This document shows, in pieces, positions 15,726 through 60,717 of a DNA stretch of 64,000 bases. The stretch spans positions 50,773 through 114,772 of the forward strand of contig JAFULF010000007.1 in NCBI GenBank assembly GCA_017483225.1, written 5' to 3'. Within the stretch, counting starts at the first letter, position 1, and each line of letters opens with the position of its first letter. The position numbers and the translations under genes are program-made. The DNA is from Alistipes sp. Lineage in GTDB: Bacteria > Bacteroidota > Bacteroidia > Bacteroidales > Rikenellaceae. The notes under the pieces were generated by a model. That model was not told the origin of the DNA, did not search any database, and saw only the letters and a program-made list of their open reading frames with translations.

Positions 15726-16048
15726 GCGGTAATTTCTGCGTTATACGTGTTATGTGCCGAAGGTCACATACGAGGAGTATGCTCCTTCCGCCACAAACAC
15801 GCAGGCCTTGAAATTCCTCGCCTAAAACAAAAAAACGAGATGTCGGTGCGGTAATTTCTGCGTTATACGTGTTATGTGCCGAAGGTCACATACGAGGAGT
15901 ATGCTCCCTCCGCCACAAACACGCAGGCCTTGAAATTCCTCGCCTAAAACAAAAAAACGAGATGTCGGTGCGGTAATTTCTGCGTTATACGTGTTATGTG
16001 CCGAAGGTCACATACGAGAAGTATGCTCCCTCCGTCACAAACACGCAA
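15726..16048 (+). repeat. Three tandem 122-bp hairpin repeats upstream of rny
   Basis: The units start at 15726, 15848 and 15970. The first two are nearly identical over their full 122 bp; the third diverges after about 80 bp. Each unit folds into an imperfect hairpin: GCGGTAATTTC pairs with GAAATTCCTCGC, CGTGTT-TGTG with CACAAACACG, and the apex is TCACATAC, 5 nt, GTATGCTCC. The apex is shared with three dispersed elements in the window. An A-rich leader of about 115 bp separates the array from rny. There are no spacers of CRISPR type and no ORF. Confidence 0.92.
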
Positions 16049-16163
16049 GATGCAGAAAAGCTGCAAAATAAAAATAAAGAGAAGATAAAAAGATAGATAA
16101 ACGAAAAAGAATAATAAACAGATAAACAACAAGTTAACCAAATTATAAACTATACAAACGATT

Positions 16164-17693
16164 ATGGAAATTATCACTATTGTAGCGATTGCCGCAGTCG
16201 TTTCCGCCATATCGGGTGCCGTGACCTATCTGGGAGTAAAGGCACGCTCAAAGGCTATAATTCAGGCCGCAGAGAGCGAGGGCGAGATGATTAAGAAGGA
16301 TAAGATTCTTCAGGCAAAGGAGAAGTTTATACAACTCAAAAGTGAGCACGACCGCAATGTCAATGAGCGCAATCAGCGCCTGAAAGAGAGCGAGCAGCGT
16401 GCCAAGCAGATTGAGTCACAACTTCAAAATCAGCAGCGTGAGTTGGAGCGCAAGGTGGCGGACAATGACCGCCTGAAAGAGAAGATGGAGGGGCAGATTC
16501 AGGCCCTCGACTCCAAGAAGGAGGAGTTGGCACGTCTGATGGCGGAGCAGAACTCCCGTTTGGAGCAAATCTCGGGTATGAGCTCGGAGGAGGCGAAGAA
16601 TATCCTCATCGAGAATATGAAGAACGAGGCGAAGAGCGAGGCTGCCGCCTACATCAACGAGACTGTCGAGGAGGCGAAACTCACGGCAACGAAGGAGGCT
16701 AAGCGTATCATCGTGGCCTCGATTCAGCGTGTAGCCACAGAGACCGCCATCGAGAACTCGGTGACCGTATTCAACATCGACTCCGACGAGGTGAAGGGCC
16801 GTATCATCGGCCGTGAGGGTCGTAACATCCGTGCCTTGGAGGCTGCCACGGGTATCGAAATCATCGTAGATGACACGCCGGAGGCTATCATCCTCAGCGG
16901 CTTCGACCCTGTGCGTCGAGAGATTGCACGTCTGGCACTGCACCAGCTCGTAACCGATGGCCGTATCCACCCGGCACGTATCGAGGAGGTGGTTGCCAAG
17001 GTCAAGAAGCAGATTGAGGAGGAGATTGTCGAGGTGGGTAAGCGTACCGCCATCGACCTCGGTATCCACGGCCTGCATCCGGAGCTTATCCGCCTGATAG
17101 GTAAGATGAAGTACCGCTCCTCGTATGGTCAGAACCTCTTGCAGCACGCACGTGAGACCGCCAATCTGGCAGGCATTATGGCGGCGGAGTTGGGCCTCAA
17201 CCCGAAGAACGCACGCCGAGCAGGTCTGCTCCACGATATCGGCAAGGTGCCTGATGATGAGCCGGAGTTGCCACACGCAATTATCGGTATGAAGCTCGCC
17301 GAGAAGTATAAGGAGAAGGCAGATGTTTGCAACGCCATCGGAGCGCACCACGACGAGGCGGAGATGACCTCGATGATTGCACCTATTATTCAGGTGTGCG
17401 ACGCTATCTCCGGAGCACGTCCGGGCGCACGTCGTGAGGTTATCGAGTCCTACATCAAGCGTTTGAAGGAGATGGAGGATATAGCACTCTCGTATGAGGG
17501 CGTGGTTAAGACCTATGCTATTCAGGCAGGTCGTGAGCTGCGTGTTATCGTAGGTGCCGACCGCCTCTCCGATGCAGAGTCCGAGTCGCTGTCGCACGAT
17601 ATTGCAAAGCGTATTCAGGATGAGATGACATATCCGGGACAGGTTAAGATTACCGTGATACGAGAGACTCGTTCCGTCTCCTACGCAAAATAA
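16164..17693 (+). CDS. rny: Ribonuclease Y
   Basis: A 509-residue endoribonuclease of the normal family length. A single N-terminal membrane anchor (residues 2-23) is followed by a long charged coiled coil (about 25-190), a KH RNA-binding domain (about 200-260, with [19 protein letters not shown]) and an HD metal-dependent phosphohydrolase domain whose motif is [12 protein letters not shown], with a second histidine cluster IGAHHDEAE. It starts mRNA decay at the inner membrane. It lies downstream of the tandem hairpin array and ends at a terminator that belongs to the same hairpin family. Confidence 0.96.
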
Positions 17694-17725
17694 GGCAAAT
17701 AGAGGGTGCTTTTGGCGCCTTGCTC

Positions 17726-17779
17726 AACACCCGAGGTGGTCACATACGTCAAGTATGCTCCCATCTCGGGTGTTTTTTT
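17726..17779 (+). terminator. rny terminator, a dispersed copy of the conserved-apex hairpin
   Basis: The stem AACACCCGAG / CTCGGGTGTT continues through TGG/CCA to the apex ACATAC-GTCAA-GTATG and is followed by seven T. The TCACATAC...GTATGCTCC apex is identical to that of the 15.7-16.0 kb array, while the outer stem differs. Confidence 0.85.
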
Positions 17780-17786
17780 GCGCAAC

Positions 17787-17937
17787 GATAAAGGTTGTTA
17801 AGGGTTATTAAAGGTTATTAAGGGTGGCGCAGGTGGTTGGGGCAAGGTCGTAAAGTCTGGCAACGTATTGCGCACCATTAACAACCCTTAATAGCCCTTA
17901 ATAGCCCTTAACTCCCTTAATAGGAGACCTTAAACTT
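17787..17937. repeat. TTAAGGG-unit inverted repeat element, copy 1
   Basis: The left arm has AAGG/AAGGG units separated by TTRTTA. The centre is GGTGGCGCA ... GGGGCAAGGTCGTAAAGT ... TTGCGCACC. The right arm has CCC runs at 17885, 17895, 17905 and 17914 with loops of 7, 7 and 6 nt. The arms pair into a very long imperfect stem, and the minus strand of the right arm fits a G-quadruplex motif. It lies between convergent rny and glf. The rest of the gap up to 17985 shows nothing else. Confidence 0.88.
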
Positions 17938-17985
17938 GTGCGCTCGACCTTGCCCAACCTTATATTGTGCCCTGAGGTCGCAGGT

Positions 17986-19095
17986 TCATTCATTCAGCAA
18001 CCTATCGGCTGTTGATAGGGCCGCATCGATGACTTGATGCATATCGTAGTAGCGGTACTCCGCCAGACGACCCCCGAAGATTACATCGGGCAGGCTGTCG
18101 GCCAGCGCACGATACTTGGCGTAGAGGTCGAGGTTGCGACTGTCGCCGATAGGGTAGTATGGTTCCATACCCTGTTGCCACTCCTGCGGGTACTCGTGTG
18201 TGATGACCGTATGAGGTCGCTCCACCCCGGAGAAGTGCTTATGCTCTATGATTCGTGTATATGGGGTCTCTCGGTCCGTGAAGTTCATCACCGCAACGCT
18301 CTGATAGTCGCTCTGCTCCAACCGCTGGTGCTCAAAGCGTAGCGAGCGGTACTCCAACGCCCCGAAGCGGTAGTCGAAGAGGCGGTCAATCTCTCCCGTA
18401 TAGACAATCTTATCCGCCAGAGGCTCCAACTCGGCACGGTGTCGGATGAAGTCGCATCCGAGGCGTACCTCCACGCCCTCCAACAACTTGTCTATAAGTG
18501 TGTTATATCCGCCGACGGGGATGCCTTGATAGGTGTCGTTGAAGTAGTTGTTGTCGAAGGTGAAGCGCACGGGCAGGCGGCGGATAATCGACGGCGGCAA
18601 CTCCGTGCAGGGGCGACCCCACTGCTTCTCGGTGTAGCCCTTGACAAGTATCTCGTATATGTCACGTCCCACGAGCGATATCGCCTGTTCTTCGAGGTTG
18701 CGTGGCTCTGTGATGCCACTCTCGGCCCGCTGCTCGGCGATGCGTGCCTGCGCCTGCTCGGGCGTGATGTCGCCCCACAGCTCGCAGAAGGTGTTCATAT
18801 TGAACGGCAGGTGGAAGAGCCGTCCCTTGTAGTTTGCTATTGGAGAGTTGATAAAGGGCGAAAACTCCACGAATGAGTTTACGAACTCCCAAATCTTGCG
18901 GTCGGAGGTGTGGAATATGTGGGCGCCGTAGCGATGTACGGCGATGCCGTCAGCATCCTCGCAGTGCACGTTGCCGCCCGTATGGTTGCGTCGCTCCACC
19001 ACAAGCACACGCTTGCCTGCCCGACGAGCCCGCCACGCTACGGTCGCACCATAGAGGCCCGCACCGACGATTATATAGTCATACTCGGCACCCAT
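17986..19095 (-). CDS. glf: UDP-galactopyranose mutase
   Basis: A 369-residue flavoenzyme that converts UDP-galactopyranose to UDP-galactofuranose for surface polysaccharides. The FAD fold is at residues 6-40 (YIIVGAGLYGATVAWRARR, then VLVVERR), followed by the family segment HTGGNVH and HRYGAHIFHTS. Later motifs typical of Glf include EKQWGRPCTELPPS and RIIEHKHF. Length matches bacterial Glf (about 365-390). It is cytoplasmic. It starts 21 bp after the stop of a DUF4837 lipoprotein gene on the same strand, but no other sugar-polymer genes are nearby, so it is an isolated glf rather than part of a capsule locus. Confidence 0.95.
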   Translation of the reverse strand: MGAEYDYIIVGAGLYGATVAWRARRAGKRVLVVERRNHTGGNVHCEDADGIAVHRYGAHIFHTSDRKIWEFVNSFVEFSPFINSPIANYKGRLFHLPFNMNTFCELWGDITPEQAQARIAEQRAESGITEPRNLEEQAISLVGRDIYEILVKGYTEKQWGRPCTELPPSIIRRLPVRFTFDNNYFNDTYQGIPVGGYNTLIDKLLEGVEVRLGCDFIRHRAELEPLADKIVYTGEIDRLFDYRFGALEYRSLRFEHQRLEQSDYQSVAVMNFTDRETPYTRIIEHKHFSGVERPHTVITHEYPQEWQQGMEPYYPIGDSRNLDLYAKYRALADSLPDVIFGGRLAEYRYYDMHQVIDAALSTADRLLNE

Positions 19096-19116
19096 CTCCC
19101 GTCGCTCTTGTGGTGG

Positions 19117-20160
19117 CTACTGTGCGCCTGCCGCCGCAGGTATCTTTATAAGGTGTACCAGATGCTCCAACGGACGGAGGAAGTTGCGCTTGCCGTACTT
19201 TGGCGAGTGTACGTAGCAGTCCAGCGTTACGACATTGCCCGAGGCGGCATCTATGGTCGTATAACTTACGAATGGGCCTCCCATAAAGTCGTTCTCCACA
19301 TCCCAGAAGCCTCGCAGCTCTATCCACTTGCGTCCCTTAATCTCCAATATTCGATGCTCGGGCATCATCCGTGTCGAGTGCAGGCCGTCGGCATCTGGAA
19401 TCTCCTCCACGGTAATCATATACGAGCCGTCGGATGGGCCGGGGATGCGCTTGGCGAACTTGTTGCGCATCGAGACCAGATACTCGACCGACAGCGACCC
19501 CTTGCTCTGATATGGGTATGTGTAGATGAAGAAGCCCTGACTTGCTGTCGGGTACTCGTGCGAGGCCCATACGAAGTGGTCGCTCTGCGCACGCAGGGCG
19601 TAACCCTGTGGCACTCGGAAATCTACGCCGGTGGCCTCCTTGATTATCTTCGATAGTGTGGTGTTGGCGTGCTGCTCGGCGTAGCGTACCGTGCGGTCAC
19701 GCTCGGCCATCTCCAACACCTGCAACAGCGACTCTCCATTCTCGGCCAGATACTCCACCATCGCTGCCTCGGTAGGCCCTTGCAGCGTGAGCACTATCTG
19801 CGGGGTGGCATCCACGTCGTACTGCGCCACGATTGCGGCACGTGTAGCCTTGGGCGACACCACCACTTTGAGGATGTTGCGATGCTGCACGAGCAGGTTC
19901 TTGAAGTCTCCCGCTGTTATGCGCAGCACGTTAAATAGCGGCTCCGCCTGGTTGAGCATCGGCACGGGTTGCTCCAACAGCGTGCGTAACGCCTCGCCGA
20001 CCTCGCCCTCCCACTCGGTGTTGTTGCATACGACGAGCAACTCGTATGGCGAGCCCTGCGTTGCCTTGTTGTTTCGGGAGAGTGTGTTGAAGCTGTCGCA
20101 CCCCGCCGCCACGATGCATACGAGCATCGCCACAAATATTGATTTTATACACCTTTTCAT
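19117..20160 (-). CDS. DUF4837 family lipoprotein
   Basis: 347 residues from the chosen start. The N-terminus (MKRCIKSIFVAMLVCIVAAGCDS) is a lipoprotein signal with lipobox AAGC, giving a lipid-anchored periplasmic or outer-membrane protein. The body matches what I know of DUF4837 (SPYELLVVCNNTEWEGEVGEALR near the N-terminus, a conserved FWDVENDFMGGPFVSY segment near residue 300). Function is unknown. An ATG 21 bp upstream is in frame, but the chosen one has the AGAGAGT context seen before many starts in this window and gives a normal signal peptide. Confidence 0.85.
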   Translation of the reverse strand: MKRCIKSIFVAMLVCIVAAGCDSFNTLSRNNKATQGSPYELLVVCNNTEWEGEVGEALRTLLEQPVPMLNQAEPLFNVLRITAGDFKNLLVQHRNILKVVVSPKATRAAIVAQYDVDATPQIVLTLQGPTEAAMVEYLAENGESLLQVLEMAERDRTVRYAEQHANTTLSKIIKEATGVDFRVPQGYALRAQSDHFVWASHEYPTASQGFFIYTYPYQSKGSLSVEYLVSMRNKFAKRIPGPSDGSYMITVEEIPDADGLHSTRMMPEHRILEIKGRKWIELRGFWDVENDFMGGPFVSYTTIDAASGNVVTLDCYVHSPKYGKRNFLRPLEHLVHLIKIPAAAGAQ

Positions 20161-20332
20161 ACTCTCTGCTTTGATTTTCAATCAACCTGTTAATACGTAC
20201 AAATGTAGATATAATTTGCGCAAATGCCAAACCGATTCGTTAATTTTGTTGCACCACTTGCGCAAAGTCCCTCAAATCAGAAGAAAATAGTTGCAAAAAA
20301 TGCGACAAAATAACTTCGTAAAGAAAATATTA

Positions 20333-20582
20333 TTAAATTTGTAGCAACATATTATGCGGAAAGTGTAAGTTTATTCTTGCAAATAGAATGTAGGAAGTTC
20401 TAAGCTGTGAAAGAGAATTTGCGAACACATCCTGCGTCGTACCTGTCTGGGTATCGGCGTGGGGCTGTTGCTTATTTTATTTCACGGGTCATCCTACAAC
20501 CTTATTTGCTAAAATGAGTATTCAGCACCACGCTTTCTTTGTATGATGTGCGAGGGTATAAAACAATAAAAACCATACTGCT
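20333..20582 (+). promoter_or_regulatory. Promoter and long 5' leader of the M64 lipoprotein gene
   Basis: TAAATTTG (20333-20340) fits the -7 consensus and is followed by about 240 nt before the ATG, unusually long for this window. The leader holds a possible 36-codon reading frame from GTG at 20407 to TGA at 20517. No clear terminator or known riboswitch is visible. The 170 bp upstream of the -7 box is AT-rich without other features. Confidence 0.4.
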
Positions 20583-23500
20583 ATGAAGAAAATTTTTGCG
20601 AACCTACTGCTTGTCGCTGCGCTGTTTGTTGCAGGTTGTAGCGATACGTTCGACGATTCGAGTATCTGGGATAAACTCGAAGACCACGAGAATCGTATCT
20701 CTTCGCTCGAAGAGCTGTGCGAACAACAGAATGCCAATATTTCGGCATTAAAGACGTTGCTCTTCTCCGTGAAGAATAACGATTATGTCACCGGTGTAAC
20801 GCCTGTAACCCAAGATGGCGAAACGATAGGCTATACTATCTCTTTCTCGAAGTTACAGCCCGTGACGATTTATCACGGACAAAATGGTCAAGACGGTAAG
20901 GATGGCTCGACACCCGTTATAGGTGTAAAAAAGGGCGATGATGCCATCTATTATTGGACTCTCAATGGCGAATGGTTGCTTGATGAAGGGGGCAATAAAA
21001 TCAAAGCAGAGGGTACCGATGGTCAGGATGGCCAAGGTGGTCAGGATGGCCAAAACGGAGAGAAGGAAGAAGATGGCATAACTCCTCAGCTGAAAATTGA
21101 GGATGGCTACTGGCATATCTCCTATGATAATGGGGCGACGTGGCAGTCGCTCGGCAAGGCAACCGGCGAGGATGGACAAGATGGAGATTCGTTCTTCCAA
21201 AGCGTGACGCAGGATGACAACAATGTCTGCTTGACGCTATCCGATGGTACGGTGATAATGTTGCCGAAGGTGTCGGGACTCAATATCCTGCTCGATGTTG
21301 AGGATGTGGCTGTTGTGCCGACCAATGCGACCATAGAGATTGGTTATGTCGTGACGGGTGCCACTGATGAGGTTGTGGTTGAGTGCCTTTCGTCGGCGGA
21401 TATTAAGGCAGAGGTGGTCAGCGATAATGCAACAACATTGAGTGGTAAGGTCGTTGTGCAGACCGCAGATGCGATAGATAAGTATAGCAAGGTTGTGCTC
21501 TTTGTTTCGGATGCAAGGAGGACTATTATGAAGAGCCTCTATTTTGAGGAGACCGGCCTTGAAGTATCTCCGGAGGTGCCGGCCGATATCGACTCGTTTG
21601 GCGGAGATGTTGCTCTGGCCTTCCTCTCAAATATCGAGTGTGAGGTGATTGTGCCTGATGAGGCGAAGGAGTGGATATCTGTTCCGGAGGCAACACGTGC
21701 TCTTGAAAATCAAACTGCGCTTATCCGTTTGACAAAGAACTTCAAGCAGGAGCGTTCGGCAACTCTGACAATCCGCACGAAGGATGGAGCAAAAAGCATC
21801 GATTATGTGGTTACTCAGCCGGAAATCAATGTGCCGGGAGATGAGTTGTGGTACACGACGTGTGATAATAAGAAAATCACCAAAGCAAATAGATTGGGAG
21901 CTACTCTTGATGCAAAGTTTGCGAAAACCGTTTTGTCACACACATACGAGAATGGCAAGGGTGTGGTTAAATTTGATGGCGATGTGACAAGGTTGTTGTC
22001 AAGTGCATTTCTGGGCAATGCAACATTGGAGACTGTGGCTCTTCCGAATACAATTAGAAGTTTTGCAGACGATGTCTTCTCCGAGTGCCCTGCTCTGAAA
22101 CATATTGTGCTGCCGGATGACCTTGGCACCTCCTCTTCGGGGGTAACCAATTATGTGACATTTGCCTATATAGCAAGATACTGTCCGAAACTCGAAGGTA
22201 TTTATGGTAACGATAATTACACGACGGAAGACAATAGGTGCTTTGTATTTTATAATAAGAACTCGGCTAACTATATGTTGGATGTGGTAGCAGGTGCCGG
22301 ACTGACCGAGTACACTATCCCGGAACATATTGCAGGGGTTCAAAATTACGCCTTCTCCGGAGCGAAGGAGATGACGACGGTATATATACCGGGCGAAAAA
22401 ACAAATGTCAATAGAACGACATTCGAGGGGTGTGATAAGTTGGAGGCAGTATATGGACCGAGAACAACGAGCGACCATAAGGGCGTGAAAAATGGAGATA
22501 CATATGTAGCATTTGTTGCTCGTACAGGCTACGACTCCCATTATGAGATACCTGACGATGTAACCGTTGTCGGGCGCAGGGCTTTCGAGAAGAGTGATTT
22601 TGAGAGTATCAGTATGGGTGACCAAATTGTGCGTATAGCCTCGTATGCATTTTCAGATTGCCCAAAACTTAAATCGGTAACACTCTCCGCAAATTTGGAA
22701 TCTATTGTCTGGGATAATACCACTTACTCTGTTGAACCTGCAAAACAGTCTAATTCATCATCTATTGGACGTAATCCGTTTTATGGTTCAAATGCTCTTG
22801 AAGCCATATATTGCAGAGCGGAGTTGCCTCCTTTCTATTTTGATTACCAGATGACTAACTTCCCGAATCTGAAATTTTACGTTCCTCGTCAATCATTTGA
22901 GGCGTATAAGAGAAATTGGGGATGGAGATGTTTTAGGGAGTTTATGCAGCCATATGACTATACCGACCTGCCGACGCAAACCCAATATATATCGACGGAC
23001 TATTCGCAGGATGGGGTTGTTACAACCATTCAGAAGGCCACAGAGGGCAATGGAATAGATGTGGTGCTTATGGGTGATGGCTATACCGACCAGCATATTG
23101 CCGATGGGACATATAAGCAGGTGATGGAGGCTGCTGCCGAGAAACTCTTTGTGGAGGAGCCATACAAGAGTTATCGCCACCTGTTCAACGTATATGCTGT
23201 TAATGCGGTATCTCCAACAGAGAGCGTTAGCAAGAGCCGTACAGCTTTTGATAGCTATTTGAGCGGAGGTACGCACGTGGAGGGAACGAATGACCACGTG
23301 ATAGAGTATGCATTGAAGGCGGTAGATGAAACACGTATTGACAACACGATGGCAATAGTTATGCTCAACTCGACCCGACGAGCAGGAACCTGCTATATGT
23401 ACTTCCCGGAGAGTGGTGATTATGGAGAGGGCCTCTCTATCTCTTACTTCCCGATAGGTAGCGACGAAACGCAACTGACGCAGGTGCTGAATCACGAGGC

Positions 23501-24008: not shown

Positions 24009-24041
24009 TTCAACGTCGAAGATTGGTGCGTAGAGTATAGA

Positions 24042-35917: not shown

Positions 35918-36394
35918 ATGGCACAAGAGATTATCTACTTAACCGCAGAGGGTTATAAAAAATTGAAGGACGAACTCGACCATATGCGTTCCGTGGAGCG
36001 TCCTGCGGCAGCAGCGGCTATCGCCGAGGCTCGTGACAAGGGCGACCTCTCCGAGAATGCCGAGTACGATGCAGCACGTGAGGCACAGGGCCTGTTGGAG
36101 ATGCGTATCGCAAACCTCGAACACACACTCACCAACTCACGCATCATCGACGAGACCAAAATCGACAAGAGCAAGGTGCAGATTCTCAGCAAGGTAACAC
36201 TGCTCAACCACAACAATAACCGTCAGGTGGTATATACCCTTGTGGCGGAGCACGAGGCCAACCTGCGTGAGGGTAAGCTCGCAATCGGCACCCCTATTGC
36301 CAAGGCTATCCTCGGCAAGAAGAAGGGAGAGGTTGTTGAGGTGACTGTTCCTGCGGGGGTATTGAAGTTTGAGATTCTTGACATATCTATCTAA
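35918..36394 (+). CDS. greA: Transcription elongation factor GreA
   Basis: A 158-residue factor of standard length. An N-terminal coiled-coil finger (residues 1-75; the tip includes DKGDLSENAEYDAAREAQ with the acidic tip residues) is followed by a FKBP-like C-terminal domain (about 85-158). It enters the polymerase secondary channel and promotes cleavage of backtracked RNA. The start was placed at MAQEIIYLT, the family start; an in-frame ATG 36 bp upstream would add an unrelated Lys/Asn-rich extension. It ends 3 bp before a conserved-apex hairpin. Confidence 0.95.
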   Translation: MAQEIIYLTAEGYKKLKDELDHMRSVERPAAAAAIAEARDKGDLSENAEYDAAREAQGLLEMRIANLEHTLTNSRIIDETKIDKSKVQILSKVTLLNHNNNRQVVYTLVAEHEANLREGKLAIGTPIAKAILGKKKGEVVEVTVPAGVLKFEILDISI

Positions 36395-36397
36395 AAC

Positions 36398-36514
36398 CAA
36401 ATAGAGCGGATATTTTGGCGTCTGCCTCGCCTTTCGAGATAGTCACATACGCTCAGTATGCTCCTACCTCGAAAGCCTCGGGCAGCCTCAAAATCTCTCG
36501 CTCTATTTGATTTT
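36398..36514 (+). repeat. Conserved-apex hairpin after greA (also its terminator)
   Basis: A hairpin of about 112 nt: CAAATAGAGCG pairs with CGCTCTATTTG, ATTTTG with CAAAAT, CTGCC with GGCAG, CTTTCGAG with CTCGAAAG, and the apex is TCACATAC-GCTCA-GTATGCTCC. A short T-tract (ATTTTA) follows. The stem sequence is quite unlike the other copies while the apex is the same. Confidence 0.88.
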
Positions 36515-36529
36515 AGAAGTGCGAATATG

Positions 36530-36561
36530 AGCGGTGTGGCGAAGGCTACGCCGCTTTTTTT
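36530..36561 (+). terminator. Second terminator downstream of greA
   Basis: AGCGG / CCGCT with inner GT/AC pairs, followed by seven T. Confidence 0.6.
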
Positions 36562-36603: not shown

Positions 36604-36735
36604 TTTAAGGGTTGTTAAGGGAGTTAAGGGCTATTAAGGGTTATTAATGGTGCGCAATATGCTGGTGTACTTTGCCGCCTTGCCCCAAACGCTTGCGTTC
36701 CCCTTAATAACCTTTAACAACCTTTTCGTTGCGCT
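36604..36735. repeat. TTAAGGG-unit inverted repeat element, copy 2 (inverted)
   Basis: The left arm has GGG runs at 36609, 36619, 36628 and 36638, with loops of 7, 6 and 7 nt. The centre TGGTGCGCAATATGC ... CTTTGCCGCCTTGCCCC is the reverse complement of the centre of copy 1. The right arm is CCCCTTAATAACCTTTAACAACC. From 36736 to 36981 the gap is C-rich and then AT-rich, with a short CCATT-ACA-AATGG palindrome (36882-36894) and no ORF. Confidence 0.87.
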
Positions 36736-36981
36736 CTCCCTAAACTCCCTAATCACCTTAACTTCCCTAATGTTGCGCCCTGCCCCCCCCCTCAACCTAT
36801 CATTCTCCTGCGTTGCCCCCACGGACACCCTTCTGAAACTCACCTTCTTTGTGTCATTTCACCCCTGAATATTGCCGTTTCGCCATTACAAATGGTGAAT
36901 ATTGTCCAAAAAATATTAACTTCGTAGCGGTTTTTACCCAAAGGGTAAATTTAGACGGGAATAACAATAAAACCAAAATCT

Positions 36982-52421: not shown

Positions 52422-52516
52422 GTTCGGGCAGGGTGTCTTGGTTGCCTCTCCCTGCCTCGAACCTCTAAACTCTCTCTATGTGCTACTCAATCTGTGCGGG
52501 GGGGGTGCCCCCCCCC
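52422..52516 (-). other. Two strong hairpins in the mreB-mreC gap
   Basis: One hairpin (52422-52462) pairs GTTCGGGCAGGG with CCCTGCCTCGAAC apart from one bulged T. The other (52498-52516) is eight G, TG and nine C on the plus strand, a nearly loop-free pure G/C stem in the transcript. Neither has a T-tract on the minus strand. They may mark RNA processing or attenuation that makes mreB more abundant than mreC. Confidence 0.5.
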
Positions 52517-52532
52517 TCCCTATATCGGGCAA

Positions 52533-53552
52533 TTATCGCAACAGGAATGAGAAGTGGTTGATGTTCTTCAAGGCGATGTTTGTTCCTCGCACAATCGCAC
52601 GCAGTGGGTCCTCGGCGATATGTACCGGAATGCCTGTCTTGTCGGAGAGGCGCTTGTTCAGACCCTTGATGAGTGCACCACCACCTGCCAGATAGATGCC
52701 GTTGCGAACTACGTCGGAGTAGAGCTCGGCAGGCATATCGGTCAGCACCTGCATCAGTGCCTCGTCCAGCTTCGAGAGCGAGGAGTCGAGAGCATAGGCA
52801 ATCTCGCTGTAATTGAGGGTCACGGTCTGTGGCAGTGATGTGAGCACGCTCGGTCCTGTCACAACGAAATCCTCGGGCTCGACCTCCAACTCAGGCAGGG
52901 CGGCACCCACCTTGCACTTAATCTCCTCGGCAGTACGCTCGCCGATGCGGATGTTGTGCTGCTGGCGGATGTAGTTGATGATGTCGGTGGTGAATACGTC
53001 ACCGGCAACATTTATGGACTTCGAGGTCACGATACCGCCCAGTGATATGCAGGCAATCTCCGATGTGCCGCCACCTATGTCGATAATCATATTTCCCTCC
53101 GGAGCCTCGACGTCGATGCCGGCACCCAGAGCCGCAGCCATAGGCTCGAAAATCATCGCCACCTCACGTGCTCCGGCGTGCTCGGCCGAGTCACGCACGG
53201 CACGAATCTCTACGTTGGTGGAGCCCGACGGTATGCAGATTACCATTTTGAGCGATGGCGAGAAGAGTGAGCCGGAGGTGTGAATCTTGCGAATCAGACC
53301 TTTGAGCATCAACTCCGTGGCGTTGAAGTCCGCAATCACGCCATCCTTCAACGGACGAATGGTGCGCAGGTTGTTCGGAGTACGGCCGATGTAAGGCTTT
53401 GCGGCGTGTCCGAGGGCGTGTAGCTGATTTGTCTGTATATCAATAGCAATCACCGACGGCTCATCAACCACAACCTCGTCATTATAGACAATCAACGTGT
53501 TGGCTGTGCCAAGGTCGATTGCCAAGTCCTGTGTGAATGAAAAAAGTCCCAT
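52533..53552 (-). CDS. mreB: Rod-shape determining protein MreB
   Basis: A 339-residue actin homologue. Phosphate-binding loops are DLGTANTLIVYN near the N-terminus and IDIGGGTSEIACISLGGIV at about 155; the adenosine motif GIYLAGGGALIKGL lies at about 285. It polymerises on ATP under the inner membrane and guides elongation. It is the first gene of the mreB-mreC-mreD-mrdA-rodA cluster and has its own upstream -7 box. Confidence 0.96.
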   Translation of the reverse strand: MGLFSFTQDLAIDLGTANTLIVYNDEVVVDEPSVIAIDIQTNQLHALGHAAKPYIGRTPNNLRTIRPLKDGVIADFNATELMLKGLIRKIHTSGSLFSPSLKMVICIPSGSTNVEIRAVRDSAEHAGAREVAMIFEPMAAALGAGIDVEAPEGNMIIDIGGGTSEIACISLGGIVTSKSINVAGDVFTTDIINYIRQQHNIRIGERTAEEIKCKVGAALPELEVEPEDFVVTGPSVLTSLPQTVTLNYSEIAYALDSSLSKLDEALMQVLTDMPAELYSDVVRNGIYLAGGGALIKGLNKRLSDKTGIPVHIAEDPLRAIVRGTNIALKNINHFSFLLR

Positions 53553-53622
53553 AGTATCTTATCTTTTTATAATTTTCTTACCGCAAAAAGTGGGTTAGCA
53601 ACGTAGTTGCTGTACGTTTTTG

Positions 53623-53630
53623 CAAAGATA
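53623..53630 (-). promoter_or_regulatory. -7 box of the mre operon
   Basis: TATCTTTG on the minus strand, 70 bp before the mreB ATG. The nearest TTG is too close to be a proper -33 box. Confidence 0.48.
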
Positions 53631-53676
53631 AACAAAAGATTGACAAGTTTTATTATTTTTTATTGAAAAAATTTTA

Positions 53677-53684
53677 TATCTTTG
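53677..53684 (+). promoter_or_regulatory. -7 box of pgi
   Basis: TATCTTTG, 90 bp before the pgi ATG, back-to-back with the mreB promoter (46 bp between the two boxes). Confidence 0.5.
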
Positions 53685-53774
53685 ATGTTTGGAAGGCGGG
53701 GCGAAGCAGGCTCCGTCGAAAGATGTGACGGAATATAAAAACTAACAACATAACAATAAATAAATCAGTAGATT

Positions 53775-55106
53775 ATGGAATTGATTAAACTCGACACCCG
53801 CAAGTGCGGAATCGAAATCTCGGAAGAGTTGAAGAATGAGGCTTTGGCTGCTAATGCTCTGTTGCACGCCGGCGAGGGCAAGGGTAGCGACTTCTTGGGC
53901 TGGATTACCCTGCCATCCGACATTGATGCCGCCCACTTGGAGGCTATCAACAAGCAGGCTGCTGCGCTGCGTGCAAAGGCCGATGTCATCATCTGTATCG
54001 GCATCGGAGGCTCGTACCTCGGCGCAAAGGCTGTTATTGACGCTATGACCAACTCGTTTGAGTTGTTGCACAAGGAGCACAAGAACCCTATCGTGCTCTT
54101 CGCAGGTCAGAATATCTCGGAGGACTATCTGGGCGAGATGTTGGAGGCGTTGAAGGATTACTCGATTGCTACCATCGTAGCCTCTAAGTCGGGTACTACC
54201 ACCGAGCCTGCCATCGCCTTCCGTATCATCAAGGAGGAGATTGAGCGCCGCTATGGTAAGGAGGATGCCAAGGAGCGTATCGTTGCCGTTACCGACAAGG
54301 CTCGTGGTGCACTCAAAACCCTCGCTACGCAGGAGGGCTATCCTACATTCGTGATTCCTGACAATGTGGGAGGTCGTTTCTCTGTGCTCTCTCCGGTAGG
54401 TCTGCTTCCGCTGGCCGCAGGTGGCGTGGATATCTGCGCACTCGTCGAGGGTGCACGTGCTGTGGAGGAGGCTACTCGTCCGGGCGTGGCTTACGAGGAT
54501 AATATCTCGGCACAGTATGCTGCCGTGCGCAACGCACTCTATCGTGCCGGCAAGAAGATTGAGATTTTGGGCTCATACGAGCCTAAGCTGATGAATATCA
54601 ACGAGTGGTGGAAGCAGCTCTATGGCGAGAGCGAGGGTAAGGACGGCAAGGGTATCTACCCTGCATCGGTAACTCTTACCGCCGACCTGCACTCTATGGG
54701 TCAGTATATTCAGGATGGTGAGCGTACCCTCTTCGAGACCATCATCTCGGTAGGCGCTCCTAAGTATGACGTGCGTGTATGCTCGGACGCAGAGAACCTC
54801 GATGGCCTGAACTACTTGGCAGGTCGTCGTCTGCACGACATCAACCGTATGGCGGAGCTGGGCGTTCAGATTGCCCACGTGGATGGTGGCGTGCCTAACC
54901 TCCGTGTAGAGATTCCGACCATCGACGAGCGCACCCTCGGTGCTCTGATTTACTTTTTCGAGAAGGCTTGCGGTATCAGCGGCTATATGCTGGGTGTCAA
55001 TCCGTTTGACCAGCCAGGCGTTGAGGCTTACAAGAAGAATATGTTTGCTCTTCTGGAAAAGCCGGGCTACGAGGAGGAGACCAAAGCAATCAAGGCTCGT
55101 CTGTAA
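53775..55106 (+). CDS. pgi: Glucose-6-phosphate isomerase
   Basis: A 443-residue isomerase of the shorter bacterial type (E. coli 549, Bacillus about 450). [17 protein letters not shown] and [17 protein letters not shown] are the sugar-phosphate binding loops (SIS-like fold), and the C-terminal lysine motif is at [21 protein letters not shown]. It interconverts glucose-6-phosphate and fructose-6-phosphate in the cytoplasm. It is a single gene, convergent with folA; a small inverted-repeat element separates them. Confidence 0.96.
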
Positions 55107-55127
55107 TACACTTATAACGTAGCAGAA

Positions 55128-55220
55128 GCTGTCTAACAAGGCTAATTTTTAACGATTTTACCCCCGCCAGAAGTGCATCTGACGGGGGTGATTTTCATTT
55201 TTGAGGACTTGTTAGACAGC
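55128..55220. repeat. 93-bp MITE-like inverted-repeat element
   Basis: Perfect 13-bp terminal inverted repeats GCTGTCTAACAAG / CTTGTTAGACAGC enclose an inner hairpin CCCCCG-C-CAGA / TCTG-A-CGGGGG (55161-55188). No target-site duplication is obvious. It stands in the gap between convergent pgi and folA, and the inner hairpin may end both transcripts. Confidence 0.75.
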
Positions 55221-55256
55221 CCCGTTTGTTTGTCTATATAATTTTGTATGCTCTGT

Positions 55257-55742
55257 TTATCGAATACGTTCCAGGTCGAGGAATGTGAACGGCGCATCGA
55301 AGCTCTCGCCTGAGGCGTACTCCGTGCGGGAGAGCTCTCGCCACTGCGAGTAGTCAATCTCGGGGAAGGAGGCATCGCCCTCGTATGGGCGGTGTACGAT
55401 GGTGAGATAGAGGCGGTCGGCATACTCCATCGCCTGCGTATATATCTGCGTGCCGCCGATGATAAAGACCTCCTCATCGCTCGGAAAGAGCGATATGGCC
55501 TCCTGCAAGGAGTGTACGACGGTGCACCCCTCGATTTGCAGGGCGGCATCTCGGGTGATGACGACATTTGTGCGCTTGGGCAGTGGTCGCCCTATCGAGT
55601 CGTAGGTCTTGCGACCCATCACAACGGGGTGGCCCGAGGTGGTGGTGCGGAAGCGCACCATATCCTCCCGAATATGCCAGAGCAGGGTGTTCTTGTCGCC
55701 GATAACGCCATTCTCGGCTATTGCTACGATGATGCTGACCAT
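55257..55742 (-). CDS. folA: Dihydrofolate reductase
   Basis: A 161-residue DHFR of normal length. MVSIIVAIAENGVIGDKNTLLWH carries the substrate-binding start and the Trp; the acidic catalytic residue is Glu in REDMVRFR (Asp in E. coli). GRKTYDSIGRPLPKRTNVV and FIIGGTQIYTQAM are the NADPH-binding motifs. The start was chosen at MVSII by family comparison; the frame is open far upstream into thyA without family match. It is 1 bp after thyA, so it is co-translated. It regenerates tetrahydrofolate used by ThyA. Confidence 0.95.
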   Translation of the reverse strand: MVSIIVAIAENGVIGDKNTLLWHIREDMVRFRTTTSGHPVVMGRKTYDSIGRPLPKRTNVVITRDAALQIEGCTVVHSLQEAISLFPSDEEVFIIGGTQIYTQAMEYADRLYLTIVHRPYEGDASFPEIDYSQWRELSRTEYASGESFDAPFTFLDLERIR

Positions 55743-55743
55743 A

Positions 55744-56643
55744 TTAGAATGACATTGGGGCTTTGATGGTTGGGTATGGGTCGTAATCCTCCAAGGTGAA
55801 GTCCTCGTAGCGGAAGTCGAACACCGACGTAACCTGCGGGTTGAGGCGCATACGTGGCAGCTTGCGAGGTGTGCGTGACAGCTGCTCGTGTGCCTGCTCC
55901 AAGTGGTTGAGGTAGAGATGGGTATCGCCCGTGGTGTGGACAAACTCGCCCGGCTCCAAGCCACACACCTGCGCAATCATCATCGTAAGCAGGGCGTAGG
56001 AGGCGATGTTGAACGGCACGCCGAGGAAGGTGTCGGCACTGCGCTGGTAGAGTTGGCACGAGAGGCGGCCATTGGCTACGTAGAACTGGAAGAGCACGTG
56101 GCACGGAGGCAGGGCCATCTCATCCACGTCGGCAACATTCCACGCCGAGACAATCATTCGGCGGGAGTCGGGGTTGCGGCGTATGGTATCCACGACCTGC
56201 TGTATCTGGTCGATGCTCTCGCCGTTAGGGCGGCCCCACGAGCGCCACTGATAGCCGTACACGTGGTTGAGGTCGCCAAATCGGTACCCCTCGATAGGGG
56301 AGTCGATGCTCTGCTGCGCAGCCGCAAGGAAGGTGTCCATATCTACGGGCAGAACGCCGTGGCGGGCGCACAACTCGTTGTAGTAGCGGTACGCATCGTT
56401 GTCCCAAATGTGCACGCCATTATCTACGAGGTACTTGATGTTGGTGTCGCCGTTGAGGAACCACAGCAACTCGTGGATGATACCCTTCAAGAAGACTTTC
56501 TTGGTTGTCAGCAGAGGAAAGCCCTCCGCCAAATCAAAACGCATCTGGTGGCCGAACACGCTCTTTGTGCCGGTGCCGGTGCGGTCGCTTTTGACAACGC
56601 CCTCGGTGTCGATACGGCGCAGTAAATCAAGATATTGTCGCAT
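55744..56643 (-). CDS. thyA: Thymidylate synthase
   Basis: A 299-residue ThyA making dTMP from dUMP with methylenetetrahydrofolate. The nucleophile is Cys in [21 protein letters not shown], the phosphate-binding arginines of [13 protein letters not shown] and [11 protein letters not shown] are typical. It is about 35 residues longer than E. coli ThyA through an insert in the small domain (about 90-120), as in Lactobacillus-type enzymes. It directly precedes folA, completing the folate cycle, and follows lpxH by 1 bp. Confidence 0.96.
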
Positions 56644-56644
56644 A

Positions 56645-57367
56645 TTACTCTAATATTTTCTGTGTAATCTCTCCCTCGTCGTTCATAACGAGGCAGTTTG
56701 GCGCATAGTGCCAATCGCCCATAAAGAGCAGGTGTTGAGGCTCACGCACCTCGTGCGTGATGTGCATATGTCCGAAGATGAAGCACTCCGCCTCGCCTTG
56801 GTGCTTGCGGGCATACTCCACGAGTGGCTCCAAGAAACGGAGGTCACGCTCCTGTCCGTGTGCCTTGCGGGATGAGCCGCTCCACCAACGTCCGAAGCTG
56901 ACAAAGAGGTCGGGATGGATAAGCCACGAGGCCAGAAAGCGCAGCACCCGAGAGCGGAATATGCCGTTCATAAGGCGCAACATCGGCGCCCCCTTGATGC
57001 CGAGGTTGTCGCCGTGTGCGAGCATCAGCCGTCGGCCTGCCACCTCGAAGAGTTGAGGGCGGGTATATACCTCGATGCCGCACTCCTCGTGCAGGTAGTT
57101 GCGCACCCACATATCGTGGTTGCCCGTGAGCATAACGACACGTATGCCTCGGTCAGTCATTCGGGCCAGCTGTCCGAGTGTGCGGACAAACCCCTTTGGC
57201 ACCACCTTGCCATACTCGAACCAAAAGTCGAAGATGTCGCCCAGCAGAAACAGCGCCTCGGCATCGGACTCAATCTCGGTCAGCCACCTTACAAAGCGCT
57301 GCTCCGTGCTCCGTGCCGTGGCCGTATCGCCGGCCCCTAAGTGTATGTCGGATGCGAAGTAATACAT
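56645..57367 (-). CDS. lpxH: UDP-2,3-diacylglucosamine diphosphatase
   Basis: A 240-residue metallophosphoesterase. The metal ligands are seen in [11 protein letters not shown] (Asp and His), [22 protein letters not shown] and the late [20 protein letters not shown] and the length of about 240 point to LpxH rather than a general phosphoesterase. It cleaves UDP-diacylglucosamine to lipid X in lipid A synthesis, at the cytoplasmic face of the inner membrane. It lies between the thioredoxin-fold lipoprotein gene and thyA in a tight operon. Confidence 0.9.
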
Positions 57368-57377
57368 CGTCTATATG

Positions 57378-58502
57378 CTATAAAATCTCCTCCAACTTCT
57401 TGGATAACTCCTCGCCATAGAGGTCCTTGCCCAGAATCTTTCCGTCACGGCCTATGAGATAGTTGGCCGGCAGCTTATGTACGTTGTAGAGCCCGAGCAT
57501 CGGCGATGCCTGACCTCGGAAGTCGCACACCGACACCCACGGCAGACGCTGTGACTGCACGGCATTTATCCACGTGGCCTTCGAGGTGTCGATGCCAACC
57601 TGATAGATGCGGAAGCCTCGGCCTTCGTACTCGTTGTAAATCTCTTTGAGGTCGGCATTCAGGGCGTTGCTGCTACCCAGCTCCGCAGACCAGAAATCGA
57701 CGAGTATCACATTGCCGTCAAGCGACGAGAGTTTGATGCTGTTGCCATACATATCGAAGGCCTCCAAGTCGGGGTAGTTGCGCTGCTCGATGGTCTTCAT
57801 CAGCGATATCTGCGCCTCCATACGTGCCACGTCGTTGCGCAGCGAGAGCAGGAATGGCGATGTCGGATAGCTCTTCGAGATGGCATCTGCAACGGTGCGG
57901 AAGTAGATGATGTCGGAGTCGGCACCCACGAGGTACTGCTCGCCCGGCAGTCGCTGGTAGAGAGCATATACGGCAGCCAGGCGGCTCTTGTTGGAGACGA
58001 TGAACGAAATCTGCTTGCGCTTAATCTCACGATATTTCGCCGTGTACTCCTGCGCTATGGTGCGACGCTCTTGCTCGTCGGCCTGCGCATAGTTGCTCAT
58101 CTTCTTGGTGAGGGCCAAGGCGCCACTCACGTAGTCGGCCGTAAATTGGCGCAACAGCTCCGACTCCTCCGAGCCGCTCACGGTGTAGTTTGCCAGAGGC
58201 GAGCCTAACGAGTTTACGGTAACCTTATCCCCCTTGCAGAGCAGCAGAGGCACACGCTCGCTGCAATATACGAGGTTATACATAGCGGGTGTTGCCGGCA
58301 CATTGTCTATTTCGAAGCGGTACGAGCCGTCGGCGGCAAGCGCAACCGAGTCTATCAGCATCTTGCCCGATGCAGAGCTCTGCTCCAAATATACGGTTTT
58401 AGGGCAGAGGCCGAGCAACTTGCCCGAAATCTCCACCTTCGAGGAGGTACAACTGCAAAGTGCAGCCACTGCAACAACTACTGAAAAAAGGGTTTTCTTC
58501 AT
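57378..58502 (-). CDS. Thioredoxin-fold lipoprotein lacking the CxxC site
   Basis: 374 residues from the chosen start. The lipoprotein signal (MKKTLFSVVVAVAALCSCTSS) has Cys in LCSC. Residues about 22-110 resemble the DUF4369 domain common in Bacteroidetes TlpA/ResA-like proteins (VEISGKLLGLCPKTVYLEQ), a helical linker follows, then a thioredoxin fold (about 240-374). The active site, normally WCGPC or similar, reads VDFWSAELGSSNALN with no cysteine, so it cannot do thiol-disulfide chemistry. An in-frame ATG 15 bp upstream is possible. It heads the lpxH-thyA-folA run with its own -7 box. Confidence 0.87.
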   Translation of the reverse strand: MKKTLFSVVVAVAALCSCTSSKVEISGKLLGLCPKTVYLEQSSASGKMLIDSVALAADGSYRFEIDNVPATPAMYNLVYCSERVPLLLCKGDKVTVNSLGSPLANYTVSGSEESELLRQFTADYVSGALALTKKMSNYAQADEQERRTIAQEYTAKYREIKRKQISFIVSNKSRLAAVYALYQRLPGEQYLVGADSDIIYFRTVADAISKSYPTSPFLLSLRNDVARMEAQISLMKTIEQRNYPDLEAFDMYGNSIKLSSLDGNVILVDFWSAELGSSNALNADLKEIYNEYEGRGFRIYQVGIDTSKATWINAVQSQRLPWVSVCDFRGQASPMLGLYNVHKLPANYLIGRDGKILGKDLYGEELSKKLEEIL

Positions 58503-58525
58503 ATGGTTCACATCCAATTATTACG

Positions 58526-58533
58526 TAAAGATA
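58526..58533 (-). promoter_or_regulatory. -7 box upstream of the thioredoxin-fold lipoprotein
   Basis: TATCTTTA on the minus strand, 23 bp before the chosen ATG and just after the DUF4290 stop; one mismatch from consensus. Confidence 0.4.
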
Positions 58534-58558
58534 GCAAAATTATATTAAAAACGCACTT

Positions 58559-59239
58559 TTATTTCTGGCTATTGTGTCGGGCGACGTTTTTGTTGCGCTT
58601 CTGCTGCTGGGAGTGGGTGCCCTTTCCCTTCTGCCCCTGACGTGCGTTGTTTTTGCCCTGACGCTGATACGGCGTATGGAAGAGTTTGTACTCCGGACGG
58701 GTATTATTTAGGACATCCTCGCTAATCTCGATGTTGTAATCGGACATTCGGCGTATATCTTTTGTGATAATCTCATTGCTCGGATGCTCCTGATTGTACT
58801 CGAAGCTCTTGTAGCGCATAAATACGGCAATCTTGTGTACCTCGCCACCAATCTGCTCCTCGCCCCCCTTCTCCGAGAGCTGCTTGATGAAGCGGGTCAC
58901 ATACTTGCCGTAGTGCTTGTATGGAATGTAGCTCTGCGGATAGTCCAGCCGCTTGGGCTTAATCATCAAGTCCTGACGAGACGGGAGTGGGTATGGGCTA
59001 TCCACATCTAACTGAAAATCAGACATTATAAAGAGGTGGTCCCAGAGCTTGTGGGTGAAGTCTGCCGTATCTCGCAGCAGCGGATTAAGGTTGCCCATTA
59101 CGGCGATTACGGCCTTTGCCTGACGGGTGCGCTCGGTGCGGTCTTCAATCTCAAACAGAGAGTCCACCATCTCCTGAATATGGCGACCATATTCAGGCAA
59201 ATAGAGTTTGCGACGTGTGTAATTATAGTTCTTTTTCAT
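58559..59239 (-). CDS. DUF4290 family protein
   Basis: A 226-residue soluble protein found almost only in Bacteroidetes; function unknown. The conserved part is residues 5-175 (LYLPEYGRHIQEMV, NLNPLLRDTADFTHKLWDHL, the IKPKRLDYPQSYIPYKHYGK block). The last 45 residues are Lys/Gln/Arg-rich and probably disordered, perhaps nucleic-acid binding. The start MKKNYNYT was chosen by family and codon context; the frame stays open 201 bp upstream, but that part is Lys/Arg-rich leader without a domain and overlaps the promoter region. Confidence 0.85.
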   Translation of the reverse strand: MKKNYNYTRRKLYLPEYGRHIQEMVDSLFEIEDRTERTRQAKAVIAVMGNLNPLLRDTADFTHKLWDHLFIMSDFQLDVDSPYPLPSRQDLMIKPKRLDYPQSYIPYKHYGKYVTRFIKQLSEKGGEEQIGGEVHKIAVFMRYKSFEYNQEHPSNEIITKDIRRMSDYNIEISEDVLNNTRPEYKLFHTPYQRQGKNNARQGQKGKGTHSQQQKRNKNVARHNSQK

Positions 59240-59398
59240 ACGTTTATAGAGATACTTTTTGTCACAAGTCAATCGCCCGTTTGGACCGGCTGACGATTTT
59301 TTCGGACTTCGGCAATACCTCTTTCGGATTGGTTTTATACACTTGTTCTCCCCTCGCTGTGCAATCTCAATCAATAGGCTTTTACGAGAGTAAAACAC

Positions 59399-59417
59399 TA
59401 ACTTTGATGCAAAAGTA
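59399..59417. promoter_or_regulatory. Overlapping divergent -7 boxes
   Basis: On the plus strand TAACTTTG (59399-59406) serves the NtrC-like gene 37 bp downstream. On the minus strand TACTTTTG (59417 down to 59410) points to DUF4290 about 170 bp away. The two cannot easily be used at once. Confidence 0.5.
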
Positions 59418-59442
59418 ACAATTTTTTTAACTTTAAGCAACT

Positions 59443-60594
59443 ATGGCAAAAGTTTTAGTTCTGGAACAATCAAAAAGTGTGCGAAACAACCTGCGGGAGC
59501 GTTTGGAATTTGAGGGCTACTCGACCGAGGTGGCCGAGAGTGCCGATAGTGCGGCGGCGATGTGTAGCCATATCCCCTTCGATGTAATCTTGGCGGATGA
59601 TGCCTCGGCGGTGCCGCAGACCGACACCCCCTTTATCGTTCTCTCCTCGGTGGCCTCCATAGAGTCGGCGGTTGAGGCGTTGCGACGGGGTGCCGCCGAC
59701 TTCCTCACCAAGCCGATAGATATGAATCGTCTGCTCGCCTCCCTGCGGCGTGTGCTGCCGGCCGAGCAGGGTGGCGACACACCCCAGCCACCGACTCGCC
59801 GCACAGCACCACGCTCCAAGCGGTCGTCACCCTCCGCCACCCCGACCATAGAGCCTATAATCGGAGCCTCCGAGGAGATTACGCACGTGCGTGAATTAAT
59901 AGACAAGGTGGCCCCGTCGGAGGCGAGGGTGCTGATTACGGGCGAGAATGGCACGGGCAAGGAGCTCGTAGCCCGCTCCCTCCACGCCAAGAGCCCCCGC
60001 TCGGAGGCCCCCTTTGTGGAGGTGAACTGCGCAGCAATACCCTCGGAGCTCATCGAGAGCGAACTCTTCGGCCACGAGCGAGGAGCCTTCACCTCCGCCG
60101 TCAAGCAGCGCAAGGGTAAGTTCGAGCAGGCGGACGGAGGCACACTCTTTATGGACGAGATTGGCGATATGTCGCTCTCGGCGCAGGCGAAGGTGCTCCG
60201 GGCGTTGCAGGAACGCAAGATTTCCAGAGTGGGCAGCGACCGTGATATTGATGTCGATGTGAGGGTCATAGCCGCCACCAACAAGAACCTTCGTGACGAG
60301 ATTGCCAAGGGCAACTTCCGTGAGGACCTCTTTCACCGCATAAGCGTCATCCTTATAAGCGTGCCGCCACTACGCTCCCGTCGGGGCGATGTCCCTATGC
60401 TTATAGACTACTTCATAGGCCGCATTTGTGAGGAGTACAACATCCCCCGCAAGCCCATTGAGGCGGAGGCGGTAGAGGCTCTCTCCAAACTCCGTTGGAG
60501 TGGCAATATTCGAGAGCTCCGCAACGTCATCGAGCGTCTTATCATATTGAGCGGGAGCAGGATAACTGTTCAGGATATTCACCTCTACTGTTAA
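59443..60594 (+). CDS. NtrC-type sigma-54 activator without C-terminal HTH
   Basis: 383 residues. The receiver (1-115) is shortened; DVILADDASA holds the expected phospho-acceptor region and FLTKPIDMN the conserved Lys. The AAA+ domain (about 140-375) has Walker A GENGTGKE, the sigma-54 contact loop GAFTSA (consensus GAFTGA), Walker B GGTLFMDEIGD, and the arginine-finger region ending RWSGNIRELRNVIERL. The Fis-type DNA-binding domain that normally follows is absent: the protein ends ITVQDIHLYC. It may act without specific DNA binding. Its stop codon lies in the first arm of the hairpin repeat that follows. Confidence 0.87.
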   Translation: MAKVLVLEQSKSVRNNLRERLEFEGYSTEVAESADSAAAMCSHIPFDVILADDASAVPQTDTPFIVLSSVASIESAVEALRRGAADFLTKPIDMNRLLASLRRVLPAEQGGDTPQPPTRRTAPRSKRSSPSATPTIEPIIGASEEITHVRELIDKVAPSEARVLITGENGTGKELVARSLHAKSPRSEAPFVEVNCAAIPSELIESELFGHERGAFTSAVKQRKGKFEQADGGTLFMDEIGDMSLSAQAKVLRALQERKISRVGSDRDIDVDVRVIAATNKNLRDEIAKGNFREDLFHRISVILISVPPLRSRRGDVPMLIDYFIGRICEEYNIPRKPIEAEAVEALSKLRWSGNIRELRNVIERLIILSGSRITVQDIHLYC

Positions 60595-60717
60595 AAATCG
60601 TTTTGGCGGGAGATTTTGGCGTCTGCCTCGTTTGTGCTGATGGTCACATACTAACGGTATGCTCCCACCAGCCCAATCTTCGAGCAGCCCCAAAATCTCC
60701 ACGCCAAAACGATTTTT
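60593..60717 (+). repeat. Conserved-apex hairpin after the NtrC-like gene
   Basis: AAAAATCGTTTTGGCG pairs with CGCCAAAACGATTTTT, GGAGATTTTGG with CCAAAATCTCC, and the apex is TCACATAC-TAACG-GTATGCTCC. The inner arms share GTCTGCCTCG with the copy after greA. It overlaps the end of the gene and probably ends its transcript. Confidence 0.9.

Follow-up and report, generated by a model that had tools for sequence, protein, structure and literature searches.

A 64-kb stretch of the genome of an Alistipes sp. (contig JAFULF010000007.1, positions 50,773 to 114,772), which we call the window, carries six long hairpins, and we find that these are copies of an ERIC-type mobile palindrome, that is, an element of ~126 nt resembling a miniature inverted-repeat transposable element (MITE) and without a gene of its own. 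ERIC is already described from E. coli and its relatives; the extension made here is its occurrence across phyla and the protection of the opposite strand. Elements of this type are present in this genome and in many other bacterial phyla, often right behind stop codons, and the strand that is kept foldable is, statistically, the complement of the one on which a first-pass annotation of this DNA had read the hairpins.

Identity with ERIC

We built a covariance model, R1, solely from 66 Rikenellaceae copies; it spans 126 positions, its calibration was short and its E-values are rough. Run on 99,802 bases of E. coli, R1 returned two matches at E<=10, both of them ERICs (E=3.7e-4 and 0.0031), each aligned over the full length of the model, from 1 to 126. 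The apex of the E. coli ERIC is TCACTTAC-TTAT-GTAAGCTCC, whose stem differs from that of Alistipes by compensated pairs, and copies in Providencia carry the Alistipes apex letter for letter. A sequence-only model, R2, reaches the Providencia loci, which had been chosen for their apex, and misses the E. coli ERIC. At the gathering score, Rfam 15 gave no match in the window or at loci L179, L182, L305 and L322. The first-pass annotation had known of no family by name; ERIC, whose E. coli members R1 retrieves, is a named near relative.

ERIC, also known as IRU, RU-1 or MITEEc1, and in Photorhabdus as MITEPlu5, is likewise a multi-copy, intergenic palindrome of ~126 nt. It shares the apex layout TCAC-NTAC..GTAN-GCTCC, the loops GCGTY and GCCTTY at fixed spacing, TA at the element start, and the placement of a copy close behind a stop codon, in the orientation of its gene: one of the two E. 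coli ERICs starts 2 nt behind the stop codon of ybhI, and the other lies antisense between pgk and fbaA. The elements differ in that the ends and stems of the Rikenellaceae copies share no sequence with E. coli ERIC, that the Rikenellaceae genome has several apex types as well as a composite subfamily with an added terminator hairpin, and that the hosts found here extend beyond Enterobacteriaceae and Vibrionaceae, the only hosts named in a 2024 review (PMC10969869). QMITE2 of Coxiella (PMC5896051) is also a MITE, of 150-190 bp, found chiefly in the 3' regions of genes; it differs in holding a GTAG REP, in having direct repeats of 7-11 nt and in serving as a target of IS1111.

A conserved centre in a compensated palindrome

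The palindrome has the apex TCANNTAC-N4/5-GTANNCTSC, in which the NN positions covary, and internal loops GCGTT and GCCTTG. The 66 Rikenellaceae copies (alignment A1) form a 38-pair hairpin in which 83.2% of cells pair and 32 of the 38 pairs show both-sided changes, numbers that, like the covariation score given below, lean towards this structure since the 38 pairs were drawn from the column statistics of A1 itself; RNAalifold on A1 gave only 10 pairs, five of them with both-sided changes. The covariation in other genomes that the first-pass annotation had proposed as a test of its hairpins is present, with a score of 0.581 in A1 against 0.187 for shuffles and 0.101-0.211 for slid partners. 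Within the stem, an internal loop C-N-T on the 5' side faces C-N'-T on the 3' side, and N and N' covary (columns 32-102: GC 25, CG 20, AU 15, other 6). The strict hairpin test was passed by 111 of 171 exact-apex copies; among these 111, 54 have a C[CG]TT that ends 19-21 nt ahead of the apex and 43 have a GC[CG]TTG that starts 18-19 nt past it.

The apex had been called invariant but is not; an exact pattern selects for a fixed apex. In the same genome the model found the versions TCATTTAC/GTAAACTGC and, fully paired, GGGCAGTAC/GTACAGCCC, and loci in other Bacteroidota have TCACGTAC/GTACGCTCC or TCATGTAC/GTACACTCC; when the two NN positions are freed, they are complementary in 43/45, 25/25 and 35/35 copies of three sets. 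The outer ends and stems vary freely and the centre is conserved. All six apexes of the window indeed top hairpins whose outer stems differ yet pair. Between the orthologous copies L049 and L146, which belong to a cluster whose upstream proteins average 97.8% identity, GAGG/CCTC is replaced by GTGG/CCAC, a compensated change; at other sites a different element is found at the same gene (L041 versus L101; L139 versus L038, L060 and L159). Integron attC sites are also strand-specific folded palindromes with variable stems and a conserved structure. However, by eye the element ends carry no attC core sites, and the apex is the conserved part here, which is the reverse of attC.

The complementary strand is kept foldable

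Selection on the hairpin in mRNA sense would lead one to expect more G.U than A.C among the isolated mismatches of the stem, and the opposite is seen. On the TCAC strand of 189 elements, there are 242 A.C mismatches against 81 G.T, and 355 C.T against 39 G.A. This asymmetry belongs to the element, since it is also present in copies that are not beside a sense stop codon (A.C:G.T 87:36, C.T:G.A 131:18), as well as in those with antisense neighbours only (17:6 and 25:4, respectively). With the motif-like positions of frequent mismatch removed, the same ratios are 77:20 and 92:20 in Rikenellaceae and 44:20 and 42:10 in the others. A bias from C to T on the coding strand would act in the opposite direction.

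Of 216 elements, 213 are untied in folding energy, and in 197 of these the complementary strand is the more stable, by a mean of 9.3 kcal/mol, compared to 93/202 for control segments taken 400 nt upstream; with DNA folding parameters it is better in 206/215 elements, versus 92/203 controls. By group, the complement is the more stable strand in 5/6 copies of the window (the rny copy being the sole one with a more stable TCAC strand), 30/34 of its own genome, 17/18 in Providencia, 6/7 in Legionella, 16/16 of the Desulfobacterales type, 16/20 phylum-scan loci and the one distinct copy of E. coli. It reads 5'-GSAG-NNTAC-N4/5-GTANN-TGA-3'. On this strand, stem mismatches become G.T/G.U wobbles, the apex loop is GAG/TGA in place of TCA/CTCC, and the C-N-T loop turns into A-N-G, giving G.A/A.G pairs. 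Compensated stems had initially been taken to argue for an RNA function; the pairing is indeed maintained from genome to genome and does not reflect drift, but the data do not support, as the molecule conserved, an RNA read with the upstream gene.

Distribution

As first reported, the pattern TCACATAC-N5-GTATGCTCC has six exact matches in the window; all are on the + strand, and shuffles give a mean of 0.14, with none of 100 reaching six. The window's genome holds 27 exact apex copies (18 +, 9 -; none for the control pattern), and the exact apex is present in 35 of 150 genomes of Rikenellaceae. R1 places 75 sites in the window's genome at E<=0.01 (150 of 539 candidates scored). Those within the window are the six of the first-pass annotation, although the palindromes are larger than it had noted, each measuring 120-129 nt. 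For gene context we used 71 elements from 76 model matches, after dropping two of ~207 nt, two of 73-78 nt and one opposite-strand duplicate; as the latter shows that a long palindrome may score on both strands, apex checks were used.

A family confined to Alistipes was rejected, as the exact apex occurs far outside it, in at least 113 stretches, about 30 of the outside stretches being the estimated share of chance (17 fixed bases, 2 x 257 Gb). Multi-copy relatives are found in genomes labelled Providencia, Legionella, Nitrosomonas, Desulfobacterales, Myxococcales and Clostridia. All 33 outside genomes reached through exact-apex loci contain R1 matches, from 1 to 74 per genome; since these genomes were picked by apex, the copy numbers tell more than the share. 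With a relaxed apex pattern, six outside genomes gave 7 to 133 matches each, and the reversed control gave 1 in all six together. Among 247 Bacteroidota genomes not picked by apex, strict filters leave 26 with matches at E<=1e-6, of which one is the window's genome, 24 belong to one family (f18) and one to another (f24).

Outside apex matches L161, L170, L172 and L174-L177 were rejected because they do not fold into a long hairpin; the last five of them represent a single viral locus that recurs. We saw no recurrent neighbour gene among the 25 largest clusters listed (ABC ATPases, the repeated viral locus, orthologous sites). A literature search with apex 8-9-mers returned, among the matches listed, titles that look unrelated. 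No ERIC outside the gammaproteobacteria turned up among the matches listed in the literature search, with De Gregorio 2005, Wilson and Sharp 2006 and Zo 2011 lying outside its reach, so that absence in print is not established.

Position at stop codons

Three of the six window copies, those behind rny, greA and the regulator gene, begin with their base at the stop codon of the preceding gene, and genome-wide the TA in the first bases of the element is often the TA of TAA or TAG. Of the other Rikenellaceae copies, 79 have a sense gene end no more than 400 nt away, and in 60 of these the stop codon is 40-62 nt from the apex; this distance is 35-70 nt in 18 of 41 copies in the window's genome and 42-65 nt in 24 of the 59 from other phyla. 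Antisense gene ends fall at 40-69 nt in 4/57 (other Rikenellaceae), 4/26 (window's genome) and 8/42 (other phyla). Most copies that abut a stop codon share one orientation, in which the TCAC strand has the sense of the preceding gene; De Gregorio et al. are said to have found in 2005 that Yersinia ERICs near stop codons also lie preferentially in one orientation.

The greA stop codon is an insertion point used repeatedly. By eye, 30 greA loci divide into one with the exact-apex element, in the window's genome, three with class C elements, and 26 with none. The class C palindromes (L270, L271, L273; apex GGGACGTAC/GTACTACCC and the like), which occur in three other species, start exactly at the greA stop codon. 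Several near-identical copies within one genome sit in unrelated flanks, which, like the turnover of elements at orthologous genes, is at most an indirect sign of transposition.

Proposed mobility and alternative explanations

On balance, we favour the view that the hairpins are a mobile element whose GGAG strand is the working hairpin and which is inserted preferentially at stop codons. The GSAG strand, as single-stranded DNA or as RNA, would be the form recognised by a mobility enzyme, and the conserved centre, rather than the freely varying ends, would be the binding site of this enzyme; that the centre is conserved while the ends are free suggests that the hairpin is recognised by its centre, in single-stranded form, and not by double-stranded terminal repeats. 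The target of insertion would be TA, in many cases that of a stop codon, and the TCAC strand would run in the direction of the preceding gene. Once inserted, the palindrome may come to serve as a terminator or as a structure at the 3' end and persist, or may degrade, as the rny copy would illustrate. It would be for the element's movement, and not for the host transcript, that selection keeps the stems paired. The T-runs make terminator action plausible, and any effects on the host transcript would be secondary. Effects on the upstream transcript are reported for Yersinia ERIC (PMC2229807, PMC10969869), but they do not explain which strand is conserved.

Several observations weigh against a mobile element of this kind. 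TA is found at both ends of the greA copy and of some others, and many copies have no 3' TA. Orientation is mixed across the genome: the upstream neighbour is in sense for 52 of the 71 elements and not for the other 19, with 24 of the 52 lying in convergent gaps, which qualify whichever way the element points, and co-directional gaps hold 22 elements in the same orientation and 16 in the opposite one, all counts being made with a home-made gene caller and with tandem copies and one duplicated contig pair counted separately. The first-pass statement that the hairpins always read with the upstream transcript applies, for the most part, to the stop-abutting copies but not to the genome. Where we sought an empty site in relatives, at L245, the flanking genes matched on different contigs and none aligned. 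Neither Y1 transposase (PF01797) nor the IS630 transposase domain DDE_3 (PF13358) has a match in the window's genome, an absence that is not proof as the assembly is 90% complete. Our data do not separate a single-stranded DNA form from an RNA form. In the phylum-scan loci the excess of C.T is strong (42 versus 1 G.A) and that of A.C weak (17 versus 12 G.T), and the TCAC strand folds better in 4/20 of them. Finally, the copies are related and share a motif, so that the strand tests are not fully independent and their p-values are not to be taken literally.

Could the hairpin instead be selected by the host, as a functional structure at the 3' end of the mRNA (a terminator, a protected 3' end or, as has been proposed for ERIC in Yersinia, a site of RNase control), with compensation preserving the RNA? 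The sense orientation of stop-abutting copies and the T-runs that follow several hairpins would fit, as would the effect of ERIC orientation on mRNA given in a review (PMC2229807). However, it is the complement that is conserved, 16 of 38 elements in co-directional gaps are antisense, and elements are replaced or absent at orthologous genes, as at most greA loci, and we consider this explanation unlikely. A classical MITE, moved in trans through its terminal repeats by an IS630-type, TA-targeting transposase, as proposed for MITEPlu5 of Photorhabdus, with a centre conserved by descent only, seems quite improbable. It is in keeping with the TA at the element start, often that of a stop codon, and with MITEPlu5 and IS630 CCC-type ends in print (PMC6267812). 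Yet it is already disfavoured in Rikenellaceae: the ends vary freely around a conserved centre and we saw no terminal consensus, the window's genome lacks a DDE_3 match, and the 3/150 family genomes with DDE_3 above the cut-off have no exact-apex copy.

Template switching of DNA at palindromes might also maintain the complementarity of the stems, with no folded molecule under selection, and compensated changes even between orthologous copies (L049, L146) would be expected from such a process. This is already disfavoured and very improbable, as the internal loops remain mismatched around a covarying pair (columns 32-102), the strands are asymmetric, and apex and spacing recur across phyla. We find it scarcely credible that these are REP/REPIN elements moved by a Y1 (RAYT) transposase: although the complement reads GGAG directly before the small hairpin CATAC-N5-GTATG, the elements have a single central apex in a 126-nt palindrome and not paired short REPs, and the Y1_Tnp search of the incomplete assembly was empty.

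Returning to a mobile element with the GGAG strand as its working hairpin, we tentatively offer a bolder extension. ERIC might be the enterobacterial tip of a superfamily that extends across the bacteria and has a single-strand mechanism of movement, so far unrecognised, in which a protein, perhaps with reverse transcription, would bind the GSAG..TGA hairpin with its G.A-rich loops (as single-stranded DNA or RNA) and insert it one-way at stop codons; the ends would vary freely because they are not recognised.

The window's genome encodes two reverse transcriptases, L354 (C31:13702-17283) and L355 (C9:12760-15271). The former adjoins a formylglycine-enzyme-like protein and looks like a diversity-generating retroelement; we saw no link between the two and the hairpins.

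Copies in the window and associated repeats

The copies of the window are listed in Table 1. Upstream of them, Pfam identifies RNase Y, GreA and a sigma-54 response regulator, as first annotated; the '6S-like RNA' named ahead of the triplet has no Rfam match, and the gene that precedes the triplet is zapA. The interval between zapA and the triplet (15435-15710) is the place where 6S RNA follows zapA in E. coli; it has no Rfam model match. The rny copy is terminator-like, with a short inner hairpin followed by a T-run. Judging from its sequence, the hairpin behind the greA element is probably the older greA terminator.

Table 1. ERIC-type palindromes of the window and an adjoining hairpin
Feature	Position	Apex	Strand	Evidence
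ERIC-type palindrome, triplet copy 1, behind zapA	15710..15837	15764-15785	+	R1 C39:66482-66609, E=1.2e-23
ERIC-type palindrome, triplet copy 2	15832..15959	15886-15907	+	R1 C39:66604-66731, E=1.7e-15
ERIC-type palindrome, triplet copy 3, altered 3' arm	15959..16078	16008-16029	+	R1 C39:66731-66850, E=1.5e-8
Degenerate copy overlapping rny TAA (17691-17693)	17689..17812	17740-17761	+	R1 C39:68461-68584, E=6e-7
ERIC-type palindrome from greA TAA (36392-36394), TA at both ends	36390..36517	36443-36464	+	R1 C39:87162-87289, E=2.2e-25; greA orthologues compared
Terminator-like hairpin and T-run behind greA element	36533..36560		+	Sequence
ERIC-type palindrome from TAA of sigma-54 response-regulator gene	60591..60719	60644-60665	+	R1 C39:111363-111491, E=1.3e-22

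Tandem arrays such as that of the window (15710-16078) are also found at L050, L063, L111, L124, L164, L169 and L217, with a spacing of ~108-160 nt. Their first copy is often at a stop codon, and the repeat unit takes in the spacer. The composite subfamily, with apex TCATTTAC/GTAAACTGC, comprises loci L214, L216, L223, L230, L237-L241, L245-L248, L250 and L254 of the window's genome. Many of these copies run on into AAAGAAA and a second hairpin, GAGCGTGTCC..GGACACGCTC, some have an extra insert of ~83 nt in the 3' arm, and several genomes of the genus contain DNA relatives at many places. Behind the same genes in the window (17795-17930, 36610-36780 and 60760-60910) lies a second kind of repeat, with runs like GGTTGTTAAGGGTTATTAAAGG and, ~100 nt further, the inverted counterpart CCCTTAATAACCC, near GCGCAA..AGGTCG.

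Significance

ERIC has been used in strain typing for decades. How elements of this type move is an open question according to a review (PMC2229807). This question would become testable with a family that spans phyla and has a defined working strand, a short motif for recognition and a point of preferred insertion. Compensated stems behind stop codons need not mean a function in the mRNA, because the conserved fold can belong to the other strand.

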